Shown here: positions 3,065 through 30,963 of the stretch, piece by piece
How the letters are laid out: each line of letters begins with the position of its first letter
Position numbering within the stretch: position 1 is the stretch's first letter
NCBI GenBank assembly: GCA_016188005.1
Contig: JACPIQ010000137.1
Coordinates: forward strand, 1 to 34,544
Direction of reading: 5' to 3'
DNA length: 34,544 nucleotides
Origin: Candidatus Rokuibacteriota bacterium
Lineage (GTDB): Bacteria; Methylomirabilota; Methylomirabilia; Rokubacteriales; CSP1-6
Program-made: the position numbers and the translations under genes
The notes under the pieces: model-generated
What the model was told of the DNA's origin: nothing
Databases searched by the model: none
What the model saw: the letters and a program-made list of their open reading frames with translations, nothing else

Positions 3065-4175
3065 TCGGCTGGGCGACGAGGACATGCCCCACCTCGCCCG
3101 GGCCCTCGCCGTCTACCGCGCCTCCCTGGGCGATCGGCTCGGGCGGGTCCGCGACGCCGCCCGCGCCGCCCTGGAGGGGCTGCGCCCCGATCGCGTCGAG
3201 GCCGTCGTCCAGCTCCTCGATGATACGGCCACCTACGAGTGGCCGCGGGGCCGCGGGCAGGCCGAGCGGCGGGTGGGCGTGTTCGCGCGCGCCGCGGGCC
3301 GCCATCCCCTGCTGGAGCCGGAGGCGCGGGCCCCCATCGTCACCGAGGCGTTCGGCGCCTGCCCGACCCGGGACGCGGACCTGACAGCCCTCCTCTACGC
3401 CGATTACCCGGAGTTCCACCAGCTCCGCTCCTTTCCCGACGGCTACACCGCGGAGGACCTGCGCGCCGACTACGACCTCGGCCAGGCCCAGGCCCTCCTC
3501 TACTCGGCCCTGCAGGTCACCGTCGAGGCCCGCGGCGACTTCAGGCACATCGTCCAGTACGCCCGGCTGTCCCGGCTGCTCCACCGGATCGAGCCGGCGC
3601 CCGGCGGCGGGTACCGCTTCGTCTTCGACGGGCCCAACTCCATCCTGCGCCACACACATGCCTACGGGGTGGACTTCGCCCGCTTCCTGGCCGCCCTGGT
3701 CCAGGCGCGCGACTGGCAGCTCACCGCCGACATCGCGTTGCGCAAGGGCTGGCGACCGTTCACCTTCGCGCTCTCGTCGGATGAGGGCCTGCGCTCGCGT
3801 GTCCCCGCCCCCGCGCTCTTCGACTCCACGCTGGAGGCCGCGCTGGCCGAGAAGTTCGGCGCCGAGCGCGAGGGCTGGCGGCTCCGGCGCGAGGCCTCGG
3901 TGATCGAGGCGGGCCCGAGCCTTCTCATCCCCGACTTCCTCTTCACCCATGCCGACGGCACGGAGGTGGCGCTCGAGATCGTCGGCTACTGGACGCCCGA
4001 GTACCTCGCGGGGAAGTTCCGCAAGCTCGGGAGGGTCACGGGCCCGAACCTCCTGGTCGCCGTCCGCCAGTCCCTCGCCCTCCAGGCCGGCGCCCTGCCG
4101 GCGGCCGTCCTGCCCTTCAAGAGCCGCATCCTGCTCCGTGAGCTCCTGCCCCGCCTCGAGTCCTTCCGGCGCTGA
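3003..4175 (+). CDS. Bax1-like nuclease (DUF790), partner of the XPB-like helicase
   Basis: The product is about 390 residues. Its C-terminal half carries a PD-(D/E)xK nuclease signature: LLIPDF (D at about 311), ALEIVGYW (E at about 325) and a lysine in GKFRKL. This is the arrangement of DUF790 (COG3372), which includes archaeal Bax1, the structure-specific nuclease bound by XPB. I chose the GTG at 3003 because the product then begins VLTRQQRVY, like family members. It overlaps the helicase gene by 62 nt. The frame is open further upstream, but that part is translation of the helicase gene in another frame. A helicase-nuclease repair complex is the likely role. Confidence 0.82.
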   Translation: MLTRQQRVYHWDRRNSSISSDRLGDEDMPHLARALAVYRASLGDRLGRVRDAARAALEGLRPDRVEAVVQLLDDTATYEWPRGRGQAERRVGVFARAAGRHPLLEPEARAPIVTEAFGACPTRDADLTALLYADYPEFHQLRSFPDGYTAEDLRADYDLGQAQALLYSALQVTVEARGDFRHIVQYARLSRLLHRIEPAPGGGYRFVFDGPNSILRHTHAYGVDFARFLAALVQARDWQLTADIALRKGWRPFTFALSSDEGLRSRVPAPALFDSTLEAALAEKFGAEREGWRLRREASVIEAGPSLLIPDFLFTHADGTEVALEIVGYWTPEYLAGKFRKLGRVTGPNLLVAVRQSLALQAGALPAAVLPFKSRILLRELLPRLESFRR

Positions 4176-4260
4176 GGCCCCCTTCTCCCCGGGTCCCGCC
4201 CGGAACTGTCTCCCCGCGTGGACATTGACGCCCGGTGTGGCCGCGGATAGCCTGGAGTCG

Positions 4261-4839
4261 ATGGCCACGTCTTCTCTCCAGCTGCGGCGGTGGACCCGCG
4301 CCGAGTACGACCGGCTGATCGACCTCGGCGTCTTTCAGCCCGGGGAGCCCATCGAGCTCATCGGCGGCCAGCTCATGGTCTGCGAGCCGCAGGGACGCCG
4401 TCACGCCTGGGCGCTCGCCATCGTGGACCACAGGCTACGGGCCGCCCTGGGTTCGGGCTGGACCGTCCGCACCCAGATGCCCGTGGACCTCGACGACGAG
4501 TCCGAGCCCGAGCCGGACCTGGCGGTCGTGTCGGGGACTCCCGAGGAGCAGCCGGTCCGGCACCCGGCCCGCCTGGCGCTGATCGTCGAGGTGGCCGAGT
4601 CGAGCCTGGGCACCGACCGCGAGGTCAAGGGCAGCCTCTACGCCCGTGCCGGCCTTGGCGACTACTGGATCGCCAATCTCGTGAATCGCGTCCTCGAGGT
4701 GTATCGCAAGCCGGTCGTGGACTCCGCGGCGCCCTACGGCTGGCGCTATGCCTCGGTGACAACGCTCCGTCCCGGCGACACCGTCTCGCCGCTGGCGGCG
4801 CCGGCCGCGCGCGTCCCCGTCGCCGACCTGTTGCCATGA
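4261..4839 (+). CDS. Uma2 family (DUF820) putative nuclease, copy 1
   Basis: The 192-residue protein has the Uma2 restriction-endonuclease-like core: IELIGGQLM in the N-terminal strand, EPEPDLAVV with the PD pair at residues 85-86, IVEVAESS (E110, E113) and K123 before GSLYARAGLGDYW. The family is widespread and multicopy, and its biological role is unclear. The ATG at 4261 is chosen because the downstream paralogue starts at the same place in the alignment. The stop overlaps the start of copy 2 (ATGA), so both are probably made from one transcript. Copy 2 is the same length, and the last ~190 nt are almost identical. Confidence 0.88.
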   Translation: MATSSLQLRRWTRAEYDRLIDLGVFQPGEPIELIGGQLMVCEPQGRRHAWALAIVDHRLRAALGSGWTVRTQMPVDLDDESEPEPDLAVVSGTPEEQPVRHPARLALIVEVAESSLGTDREVKGSLYARAGLGDYWIANLVNRVLEVYRKPVVDSAAPYGWRYASVTTLRPGDTVSPLAAPAARVPVADLLP

Positions 4840-5414
4840 CCACATACGAGATCCGCACGCGCCGCTGGACCCGCGCCGAGTACGGGCGGCTCATCGACCT
4901 CGGCCTCTTCCAGCCCGGCGAGCCCATCGAGTTGATCGGCGGCCAGCTCATGGTCTCGGAGCCGCAGGGGAGTGGCCACTTCACCACGGTCGGCCTCGTG
5001 GACGACACGCTGCGCGCGGCCTTTGGACCGGGGTGGGTGGTCCGGGCTCAGGGGCCGCTGGCCCTGGACGACGAGTCGGAGCCGGAGCCGGACGTGGCGG
5101 TGGTGCCGGGGTCCCGCCGGGATTATCTCCACGGCCATCCCGGGTTGCCCGTGCTCACCGTGGAGGTGGCCGAGTCGAGCCTGTCCTTCGACCGCCGCGA
5201 CAAGGGGAGCCTCTACGCCCGTGCCGGCCTTGGCGACTACTGGATCGTCAATCTCGTGGATCGCGTCCTCGAGGTGTATCGCAAGCCGGTCGTGGACCCC
5301 GCGGCGCCCTACGGCTGGCGCTATGCCTCGGTGACAACCCTCCGTCCCGGCGACACCGTCTCGCCGCTGGCAGCGCCGCCCGCGCGCGTCCCCGTCGCCG
5401 ACCTCTTGCCATGA
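4836..5414 (+). CDS. Uma2 family (DUF820) putative nuclease, copy 2
   Basis: This is the tandem paralogue of the preceding gene, also 192 residues, with the same motifs (RRWTRAEYGRLIDLG, EPEPDVAVV, VEVAESSLS, KGSLYARAGLGDYW). The start ATG overlaps the previous stop. The two genes are offset by exactly 575 nt. Their 3' ends (4640-4839 and 5215-5414) differ at only about a dozen bases, while the middle parts (roughly residues 40-115) have diverged much more. That patchy identity suggests recent gene conversion or a recombined duplication. An ATGA at the end of copy 2 repeats the junction seen between the copies, but no third copy follows. Confidence 0.88.
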   Translation: MTTYEIRTRRWTRAEYGRLIDLGLFQPGEPIELIGGQLMVSEPQGSGHFTTVGLVDDTLRAAFGPGWVVRAQGPLALDDESEPEPDVAVVPGSRRDYLHGHPGLPVLTVEVAESSLSFDRRDKGSLYARAGLGDYWIVNLVDRVLEVYRKPVVDPAAPYGWRYASVTTLRPGDTVSPLAAPPARVPVADLLP

Positions 5415-28273: not shown

Positions 28274-28768
28274 TCACTTTGCCTGCGACGTGTAGAATTG
28301 CACGAGCCCCAGGATGTCCTGCCAGACCAGCCGGCCGATCGGGCCCGAGCTGTATTGCGCCACCACGATGGTCTTGTCCGGCTTCACGACGAAGCCCGTG
28401 GACTGGAGAATCCCACGCCGCTCCTCGTAGAAGGCGCCCAGGGCGGCCGCGGTGTCCCGGACGGGCAGCCCGTAGCCGACGGGGAACGTGAGCGAGTGCT
28501 CGGCGACCGTCTCCTTGGCCTTCTCCAGGGGATCCGTGGAGGCGGCGACCACCGTGATCCCCGCCTCCTGGAGCTTGGCCTGGGCCCGCTCGAAAGCAGC
28601 CAACTGCTGCTTGCAGTACGGTCACCAGTGGGCGCGGTAGAGCAAGAGCACGCCCCAGCCCTCGCCGAAGCGGTCGGGTACCGTGATGCGCCCGTGCGCC
28701 ACCGTCTCCATCGCCACCGTGGGGAGTCTCTCGCCGCTGTCCAGGAGCCTCGTGTCTGCTCTCGTCAT
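28274..28768 (-). CDS. Peroxiredoxin-like selenoprotein (UxxC), UGA read as selenocysteine
   Basis: Translation from the ATG at 28768 gives 164 residues if the UGA at 28624-28622 (codon 49) is selenocysteine. AAGGAG at 28775-28780 supports the start. The product is a thioredoxin-fold AhpC/TSA-like protein: LLLYRAHW-U-PYCKQQLAAF sits where relatives have a W-C-P-Y-C active site, then ITVVAASTDP, and GFVVKPDKTIVVAQYSSGP. Sequence on both sides of the UGA is one continuous domain with no frameshift, and the residue replaced is the catalytic cysteine. A hairpin follows the UGA (see SECIS). Read as a stop, the gene would lose its domain. The predicted role is a thiol/selenol peroxidase. It is the last gene of the tetR operon. 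Confidence 0.85.
28594..28612 (-). promoter_or_regulatory. Candidate bacterial SECIS hairpin, peroxiredoxin-like gene
   Basis: On the minus strand AAGCAGC (28612-28606) pairs perfectly with GCTGCTT (28600-28594) around the loop AGTTG. The loop begins 16 nt after the UGA and its second base is G. Both fit the usual description of bacterial SECIS elements, which lie just 3' of the UGA within the coding region and bind SelB. Confidence 0.7.
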
Positions 28769-28853: not shown

Positions 28854-29654
28854 CTACCCGGTCGACCGCGGATCGAAGTCCGGCTGGAGCTGGAGGGTAT
28901 CAGCGATCTTGGTCACCGTATTGAAGAGCTGAACGACCTCGATGGCTTCGGTCAGCGCGCGGTCAGACAGCCCAAGCCGACGCGCTTCACGAAGGTGAAA
29001 GTCGACACCATAGTCCGACTTGCCGGTCATCGAGGCCGCCAGCGCGAGGACCTCCTTCATGCGACGGTCGAGGGCCCGGTCCGCGAAGGCCTCCCGCGTC
29101 GCGGCCCAGTACCCCTGGAGGAATCCGACGTCGCGCCCCATCCACCGGAACACCGCCGGGGGTCGATCCACGGCATAGAAGCCGACGATGTCATCGAACA
29201 CCATCTTGAGCTCGGGAGAGGCGTCGGCTGGATCGGGGAGCGGGAGAACTGGCTGCCGTGCCGACGGAGAGAACTCCAGCGGGAGGCGGAGGCCATCGGC
29301 GACCGCGTTGAGCGCGTGGGTCACGCCGGCCACGTAGGCCACCTCGTACCAGATCCGATCGTCGGCCAGCCCTTGCAGCTTCCCGGCTGCGCTGTGTGCG
29401 ACCAGTCAATACTCGCACACGTTGATGGCGCTCACCATGCTGGCGATGAGCTCCTTCTGGGCGCGCGTCAGAGCGCCATCGGCCATCGCGCGTCGGGAGG
29501 CGCGCCCGTAGGGCCGACCGAACTCGGGAACGGTCAGCAGCACACGGCTCATCTTGGGGACGAAGTCGATCTTGAACCACGCCTTCGTACCCTCGAAGAC
29601 TTTCTGATCCTCCGCTGCCAGGTCGTGCGCTTCGGGGACTCGGACGATCTCCAT
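28854..29654 (-). CDS. AhpD-like selenoprotein (CEYU-x3-H), tandem AhpD domains
   Basis: Reading UGA at 29408-29406 (codon 83) as selenocysteine gives 266 residues from the ATG at 29654 (AAGGAG at 29661-29666). The N-terminal half carries the AhpD/carboxymuconolactone-decarboxylase active site with exact spacing: E68, C80, U83 and H87, matching Glu118, Cys130, Cys133 and His137 of mycobacterial AhpD. The C-terminal half repeats it 133 residues later (E201, S213, G216, H220), with both redox positions lost. The frame runs unbroken on each side of the UGA. AhpD-type proteins are disulfide reductases that regenerate peroxiredoxins, and a peroxiredoxin-like gene follows 85 nt downstream. The gene lies 17 nt after the dehalogenase gene. 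Confidence 0.85.
29375..29390 (-). promoter_or_regulatory. Candidate bacterial SECIS hairpin, AhpD-like gene
   Basis: GCAGC (29390-29386) pairs with GCTGC (29379-29375) around the loop CGGGAA on the minus strand. The loop starts 20 nt after the UGA and has G at its second position. Flanking CAGC and GCTG (29394-29391 and 29370-29367) could lengthen the stem across a bulge. Confidence 0.6.
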
Positions 29655-29671: not shown

Positions 29672-30328
29672 CTAGTCCTCGAGTTGGTCGAGGCTGCTGA
29701 CGACGGCATCGGCGGCCACACCGAGTTCTTCCGCTGGTGCGCTCAGCCGATTACACCAGGCCACTCGGTAGCCGAACGCTTTCGCACCGACGACGTCCCA
29801 GGCGTTGGAAGACACGAACAAGAGCGCGCTCGCCGGAATGCTCAACGTCTCAGGCCCGAGCGCGTAGACTCGCGGCGACGGCTTGTAGGTCTTAACCTGG
29901 TCGACCGAGATGATGTGCTCCAGGCAATGGCCGAGCCCGCTCGACGCGACGGCCGCCGCGAGCATCCTCGGCGACCCGTTGGAGAGGATCGCGCGCGGCC
30001 GGCCCTCGAGACGCTCCAGTGCGGCCTTGACTTCGGGGAAGCACGCCAGGCTCAGATACGCCTCGATGAGCCGGCAGATCTGCGCTTCGCTCGTGGTGAG
30101 GCGAAGGCGGCGGATCGCGTACCGGAGGGCGGACTCGGTGACGGCCCAGAAGTCCTCGTAGCGGCCCATGAGCGCCCGGAGCCAGGTGTATTCGAGTTGC
30201 TTCTGGCGCCAGGTTGCCGACAGAGCCACCGGGTCGTCCGTCACCTCTCGTGCCGCATCGACCACCGAATGGACGTCGAACAGGGTCCCGTAGGCGTCGA
30301 ACACGTACCCCCGGACGCGCGTTCCCAT
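29672..30328 (-). CDS. L-2-haloacid dehalogenase, type II
   Basis: This 218-residue HAD-superfamily hydrolase displaces halide from short 2-haloacids through an aspartyl ester. It keeps the full catalytic set known from L-2-haloacid dehalogenases: nucleophile D11 with T15 (FDAYGTLFD), R41 (TWRQKQLEYTW), S116-N117 (LSNGSP), K149 (YKPSP), Y155, and S173, N175 and D178 (FVSSNAWDVVGAK). The cap segment LEYTWLRALMGRYEDFW is typical. It sits between the TetR gene (44-nt gap) and the AhpD-like selenoprotein gene (17-nt gap), on the same strand, so it probably belongs to their operon. The natural substrate is not shown by the sequence. Confidence 0.93.
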   Translation of the reverse strand: MGTRVRGYVFDAYGTLFDVHSVVDAAREVTDDPVALSATWRQKQLEYTWLRALMGRYEDFWAVTESALRYAIRRLRLTTSEAQICRLIEAYLSLACFPEVKAALERLEGRPRAILSNGSPRMLAAAVASSGLGHCLEHIISVDQVKTYKPSPRVYALGPETLSIPASALLFVSSNAWDVVGAKAFGYRVAWCNRLSAPAEELGVAADAVVSSLDQLED

Positions 30329-30372: not shown

Positions 30373-30963
30373 TTACGTGACGAGTTGGATCGCCTTCCGC
30401 CCGAGGCGCGTGATCAGCGCAGGATCGTTCTCGGCCGTTGCCACGAGTAAGATGCCTTCCATGTACGCCACGAGCGCCTGGGCGTTCATGGCCGGATCGA
30501 TGCCGGGAAGATCGCCGGCCGCGATTGCCTCTCTGAGCGCTCCCTCGAAGTAGGATGCGATCGCTTGAAAGATCTGGCGCAGCTTCCGGCGGATCCGTTC
30601 ATCCTGGCTGCTCATCTCTCCGGACAGGTTCCCGAACGGGCAACCCCGGACCTGCCCGGTCCGTTTTTTCGTCGCCGCCTGCACCTTGGCGAGCAGATCG
30701 AAGAACCGCCCGAGTCGCTGGATCGGAGGCAGATCGTCTCGGAAGGCTGGTTCCAGCACCAGTTCCGTGGTCTTCCGCCAGTGCCAGTCCAGCGCGGCGA
30801 GCGTGAGCGCATGTTTGGAGCGAAAGAAGTGGTAGAAGCTTCCTTTCTTGACCCCTGCTCGTTGGCACAGTGCCTCGACGCCCACGCTCGCGTAGCCCCG
30901 GGCATGCAGCAGGTCGGCGGCAGTCGCCACCAGCCTTTCGTTGGCGTCGCTCGTCCGTCCCAT
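30373..30963 (-). CDS. TetR/AcrR family transcriptional regulator
   Basis: The 196-residue regulator has an N-terminal TetR helix-turn-helix (about residues 8-52: LLHARGYASVGVEALCQRAG, then VKKGSFYHFFRSKHAL). Its ligand domain includes RGCPFGNLSGEMSS, typical of the AcrR/YcdC-like branch. The ATG at 30963 begins only about 9 nt after the expected transcription start, with no ribosome site, so the mRNA would be nearly leaderless. The gene heads a four-gene minus-strand operon (dehalogenase, AhpD-like and peroxiredoxin-like selenoproteins). A palindrome at the start site suggests autorepression, relieved by an unknown ligand. Confidence 0.92.
   Translation of the reverse strand: MGRTSDANERLVATAADLLHARGYASVGVEALCQRAGVKKGSFYHFFRSKHALTLAALDWHWRKTTELVLEPAFRDDLPPIQRLGRFFDLLAKVQAATKKRTGQVRGCPFGNLSGEMSSQDERIRRKLRQIFQAIASYFEGALREAIAAGDLPGIDPAMNAQALVAYMEGILLVATAENDPALITRLGRKAIQLVT

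Follow-up and report, generated by a model that had tools for sequence, protein, structure and literature searches.

A predicted AhpD-like selenoprotein with a redox-less second domain, and its Prx-like neighbour, in Rokubacteria

In AhpD of Mycobacterium tuberculosis the second cysteine of the C-x2-C motif is the attacking residue, activated through a glutamate and a histidine, and the first cysteine resolves. Forms of AhpD-like proteins with selenocysteine (Sec) in a CxxU motif have been known since 2005, when they were found in the Sargasso Sea (PMC1088965); the earlier note on this DNA, too, had AhpD-like selenoproteins as reported. The Sargasso Sea and Global Ocean Sampling surveys contain COG2128/TIGR01926 and PF02627 forms (PMC1088965, PMC2398784), and AhpD-like selenoproteins have been catalogued with TIGR01926 and PF02627 (PMC13188914). 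Among the AhpD-like and CMD-like entries of the latter review are MCB9421940.1 and MBW1767730.1. As such proteins are described and catalogued, we place the Rokubacteria protein analysed here within this known kind, to which it adds a complete extra domain. It shares with the marine-survey proteins the AhpD/CMD superfamily, the CxxU motif with Sec as the second residue and a predicted bSECIS element downstream. It differs in its length of 266 AA and its complete, redox-less second AhpD domain, a distinction drawn from descriptions, and the relation may be closer.

M. tuberculosis AhpD (1KNC, 1GU9) has the E-x11-C-x2-C-x3-H spacing, in which the Rokubacteria protein has Sec for the second Cys, but it is a 177-AA Cys enzyme with weak sequence similarity (E ~0.002). 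The TIGR01926-type "peroxidase-related" enzymes (2PFX, 2OYO, 6K40) carry Cys at the Sec position in their N-terminal part, and the part after their active half aligns weakly with the C-terminal half of the Rokubacteria protein and also has no redox residues; they differ in being ~190 AA long, with a shortened second half and Cys, not Sec. Bxe_B0980 (2Q0T) likewise has two CMD domains in one ~260-AA chain (TM-score 0.63-0.67, one chain), but it is annotated as a putative gamma-carboxymuconolactone decarboxylase subunit and is 16% identical. For the neighbouring gene the comparison is with Prx-like thiol:disulfide oxidoreductase selenoproteins (UxxC, PF00578), which have the same AhpC/TSA fold and UxxC motif, whereas the Rokubacteria form is a subfamily with H-W-U-P-Y-C-x-Q-Q-L. 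A pair of adjacent AhpD-like and Prx-like selenoproteins has one earlier record, in marine metagenomic reads.

The window, i.e. the whole stretch of DNA analysed (34,544 nt), is contig C137 of a 5.37-Mb host genome that is 98% complete. The features assigned in it are as follows.

28854-29654, minus strand: predicted AhpD-like/CMD selenoprotein gene, 266 codons, UGA as codon 83
29406-29408, minus strand: in-frame UGA, predicted Sec83, in the motif C80-E-Y-U83-L-V-A-H87; UGA in 38 distinct homologues
29375-29390, minus strand: SECIS-like stem-loop core GCAGC-CGGGAA-GCUGC; synonymous-site conservation and bSECIS model fit
29265-29654, minus strand: N-terminal AhpD domain, residues 1-130, with E68/C80/U83/H87; TIGR00778/TIGR01926 match over residues 4-101, invariant columns
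28857-29264, minus strand: C-terminal complete AhpD/CMD domain, residues 131-266, S213/G216 replacing the redox pair and H220 kept; best PF02627 stretch 182-253, hhalign, helices 147-253
28274-28768, minus strand: predicted Prx-like selenoprotein gene, AhpC/TSA fold, UGA as codon 49, W-U-P-Y-C; PF00578, 71.5 bits
28622-28624, minus strand: in-frame UGA, predicted Sec49 of the Prx-like gene; UGA at that codon in the nine orthologues compared
28596-28610, minus strand: SECIS-like stem-loop GCAGC-AGUUG-GCUGC of the Prx-like gene; codons identical in 9/9 orthologues
29672-30328, minus strand: haloacid dehalogenase type II (HAD) gene, co-directional, 17 nt upstream of the AhpD-like gene; TIGR01428, 219 bits, over cut-off
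30373-30963, minus strand: TetR-family regulator, first gene of the run on this strand; PF00440, PF16925

Elsewhere in the window, adjacent plus-strand stretches at 3949-4839 and 4290-5414 encode very similar RRWTRAEY...GQLMV proteins, an apparent tandem duplication.

Translation of 29654-28854 (minus strand) with TGA as U gave a single 266-AA frame with one U, at position 83. The earlier note had taken the frames 29654-29409 and 29405-28854 for one gene split by TGA alone, and this is borne out, as is its placing of the UGA at the second active-site Cys, with E68, C80, U83 and H87 at the spacing of AhpD. An AAGGAG ribosome-binding sequence lies a few bases 5′ of the ATG.

Homologues were searched for in 60 relatives and then in 95 genomes of the phylum Methylomirabilota. 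The 95 genomes contain ~40 full-length or near-full-length homologues, and the full-length ones have one TGA within the match. This TGA falls on one and the same codon across the alignment, and every full-length homologue spanning the site has UGA there, more than chance would give. The motif C-x-Y-U-x2-[AG]-H is present in 38 distinct homologues, with identity down to ~45%, and no other codon at U83 was seen within this orthologue group (38 distinct sequences, phylum genomes). Columns E68, C80, Y82, U83 and H87 and the stretch A89-G95 are among those that are invariant. A copy of the gene in JACPSW010000081.1 (L050) is joined to out-of-frame sequence, being frameshifted or mis-assembled.

Relatives with Cys aligned at U83 were found alongside the Sec homologues, as one would look for in a Sec protein and as had been proposed as a check. 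Single-domain Cys paralogues in Methylomirabilota have C-x-Y-C-x2-S-H (e.g. CEYCIASH), and in 2PFX INKCFYCLVAHGAA aligns with INVCEYULVAHSAA of the AhpD-like selenoprotein, the Cys of its CFYCLVAH motif standing at U83. All these Cys relatives are either paralogues or AhpD-like proteins at a greater distance; the thorough search, which covered the genomes of the phylum, found no Cys version of this very tandem protein. A plasmid search gave distant CMD matches only (~30% identity). The predicted AhpD-like selenoprotein is intact, and it is conserved in an uncultured group of bacteria from soil and groundwater.

Downstream of the UGA, the stem of the hairpin begins at nt 16 and the apical loop after 20 nt, with G at loop position 2. 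A hairpin with a G-containing loop had been described at this place before, and it is there; the 20 nt previously given as its start is the distance to the loop. The bSECIS model specifies a loop of 3-9 nt with G in the first two positions at 16-37 nt from the UGA together with an upper stem of 4-16 bp and an MFE of at most -7.5 (PMC13188914). The AhpD-like hairpin fits this model (a CGGGAA loop at a spacing of 20, a 5-bp stem and an MFE of -15.4 for the region), and its synonymous sites are conserved, so that the SECIS support suggested earlier was obtained. The isolated 16-nt core has an MFE of -6.6, and the MFE of the region does not differ significantly from that of shuffled sequence (z 0.26). 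As the folding energy is not better than that of the shuffles, the SECIS assignment rests on conservation and geometry.

Across the 38 homologues the hairpin codons read GCA-GCC-GGG-AAG-CTG. Ala89 is encoded by GCA in 35/38, against 16 of 878 Ala codons (1.8%) in the rest of these genes, and the three GCG exceptions keep the stem through a G-U pair. Gly91 is GGG in all 38 vs. a background of 23%. Where residue 88 is Thr, its codon is ACT in 25/26 vs. a background of 2.6%, which extends the stem. Because the homologues share kinship, binomial p-values for these frozen codons are overstated; the contrast with synonymous sites of the same genes is independent of them.

All four Sec genes whose presence had been raised as a check are found in the host genome. 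These are tRNA-Sec (selC; 69 bits, UCA anticodon), selA (TIGR00474, 577 bits) on contig C4 close to selB (364 bits, contig C4), and selD (348 bits; G000:C86:102037-102972, L053), which has an in-frame TGA of its own and is probably itself a selenoprotein. Sec coding of codon 83 is thus supported by comparative evidence and by the Sec machinery in the genome. For the selenoprotein and domain claims taken jointly, i.e. that the product is a true selenoprotein of the AhpD/CMD superfamily with two domains, we put the probability at about 0.93. A reading of the UGA as a genuine stop or a codon in decay, in which the products would be a fragment of 82 AA and a C-terminal protein with a start of its own (a pseudogene or two genes), is extremely improbable. 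Standard translation does yield two frames, with an internal GTG start at 29342, and UGA is used as a stop too in this genome, for example by the Prx-like gene. Yet UGA stands at one codon in 38 homologues, the protein is strongly conserved on both sides of it, the hairpin codons are frozen and the complete Sec machinery speaks against a true stop. Readings as a pseudogene, a sequencing error or two genes were rejected because 38 homologues conserve both the UGA and the codons that follow it, and a general reassignment of UGA was rejected on the ground that it ends genes in the host genome.

Searches with domain models matched both halves of the protein. PF02627 (CMD) gave 81.5 bits (cut-off 23) over two stretches, and TIGR00778 matched twice (65.7 bits, cut-off 27.8). 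The AhpD active-site set E-x11-C-x2-C-x3-H is present as invariant E68, C80, U83 and H87, with Sec as the second Cys. The protein fell under the cut-offs of TIGR01926 (59.8 vs. 81.8 bits), by which model it is a relative and not a member, and of NF041238 (AhpD-related selenoprotein, CFYUT motif; 42.4 vs. 175 bits). Profile-profile alignment of the two halves with hhalign covered 126 columns (probability 97.4, E 1e-11) and placed C80/U83/H87 opposite S213/G216/H220. The fusion of an active with a redox-less AhpD domain proposed earlier therefore agrees with the models, which match both halves, and with the match between the halves. A repeat of the motif at +133 (E201, S213, G216, H220) is also there; S213, G216 and H220 are invariant among homologues, while E201 is not conserved. 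In every homologue the redox pair is absent from the C-terminal half.

The AlphaFold model is all-helical, with six helices per half (mean pLDDT 82, pTM 0.81); confidence is low for the first 60 residues and above 90 (pLDDT) across most of the C-terminal half. The best Foldseek matches were AhpD-family proteins, including single-domain 2OUW at 1.6 Å over 126 columns. In a tree of the halves, the N-terminal and C-terminal halves form separate, well supported groups (deep supports 78-88). The C-terminal half may have arisen by intragenic duplication or by fusion with a single-domain relative, as the tree fits either. The combination of an active and a dead half had been called unusual; this does not hold, since 6K40, 2PFX and a second tandem CMD/AhpD selenoprotein family are alike in this respect. 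That second family, of the same phylum (L116, L117, L118 and L119, in G009, G025, G003 and G089), has N-[AG]-C-[HT]-Y-U-I-D-S-H in the first half and a second half without redox residues.

Scanning the whole window for UGA-split frames, we found two convincing cases, the AhpD-like gene and the next gene behind it, a Prx-like one (28768-28274) that the earlier note had missed. Around its UGA the latter reads YRAHW-U49-PYCKQQL, and it combines the AhpC/TSA fold with UxxC and a conserved UGA; none of the NCBIfam models that the protein matched reached its cut-off. Strong Prx-like matches in the phylum nearly all have TGA inside. In the hairpin of this gene the loop lies 16 nt past the UGA. All nine close orthologues compared have the codons CAG CAG TTG GCT, of which TTG and GCT are seldom used in the remainder of these genes.

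Three genomes from two genera have the two genes side by side (the window genome, G002, a second species of the same genus, and G089), and in G015 they lie 4.7 kb apart on one contig. A close Prx-like homologue is absent from most genomes with the AhpD-like gene, and others have the two genes on separate contigs. Right after the pair in G089 (C284; L124:597-1535, minus strand) comes a third probable selenoprotein gene, of CMD type with R-C-N-F-U-L-T-V-H, so that three lie in succession; the L124 stretch includes a run of N. In relatives (L079, L080, L077) UGA-split redox genes also occur near one another, with the motifs TlpA-like W-U-P-[HTY]-C, glutaredoxin-like T-U-Q-S-C, C-P-N-U-A-G-H and V-T-W-U-P-L-C.

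As for the mechanism, SelB with Sec-tRNA(UCA) would read the UGA of codon 83 as Sec, directed by the hairpin, whose start is 15 nt downstream. The N-terminal domain would be catalytic, with Sec83 as the attacking residue, by the position of the second Cys in M. tuberculosis AhpD, C80 to resolve it and E68/H87 to relay protons; the cycle would pass through a C80-Sec83 selenenylsulfide. The redox-less C-terminal domain is probably a structural half that completes an AhpD-type assembly. The chemistry would be reduction of a hydroperoxide or of a disulfide/selenenylsulfide, possibly with the W-U-P-Y-C Prx-like protein as partner. Reading function from sequence, we consider peroxide or disulfide reduction somewhat favoured as the activity.

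Other views of the function were weighed against this. The protein could be mainly a redoxin whose C80-Sec83 pair reduces the Prx-like selenoprotein, as AhpD does AhpC in mycobacteria, and does not attack peroxide itself. In its favour, the two selenoprotein genes lie side by side in the host genome, in another species of that genus and in a different genus (G089). Against it, a close Prx-like homologue is lacking in most genomes that bear the AhpD-like gene, and in others the genes sit on separate contigs. We regard the redoxin view as a minority reading, though a serious one. Considerably more doubtful is the idea that tandem AhpD and W-U-P-Y-C Prx-like proteins form a two-selenoprotein peroxide-detoxification pair specific to Methylomirabilota, with a dedicated role for the redox-less half, e.g. 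docking of the Prx-like partner.

Least likely of these is that the selenoprotein acts mainly not on peroxide but as some other enzyme of the CMD superfamily, such as one of dehalogenase type, together with the product of the upstream HAD type II gene. That gene, a strong match, adjoins the AhpD-like one, the debrominase Bmp8 is among the fold matches, and group I haloacid dehalogenases came up in both sequence and fold searches. The fold matches to haloacid dehalogenases, however, have TM-scores of only ~0.25 and were judged to be distant superfamily similarity, and the E-C-U-H set agrees with redox AhpD and not with DehI. Conserved linkage of the HAD and AhpD-like genes was tested in relatives and not found, the HAD gene not standing beside AhpD-like homologues there. 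Peroxide or disulfide reduction by Sec83 and C80 is the function that we prefer.

According to the passage of PMC13188914 that cites it, a Methylomirabilota MAG has what may be the largest predicted bacterial selenoproteome, with 63 genes; the AhpD-like and Prx-like selenoproteins of Rokubacteria are in line with this report. Both genes carry the frozen GCAGC-loop-GCUGC hairpin, a clean example for the study of SelB recognition in this phylum. As standard translation cuts the AhpD-like gene, and likewise its Prx-like neighbour, into two fragments, annotation can easily overlook a conserved, predicted Se-dependent redox system in this uncultured group.
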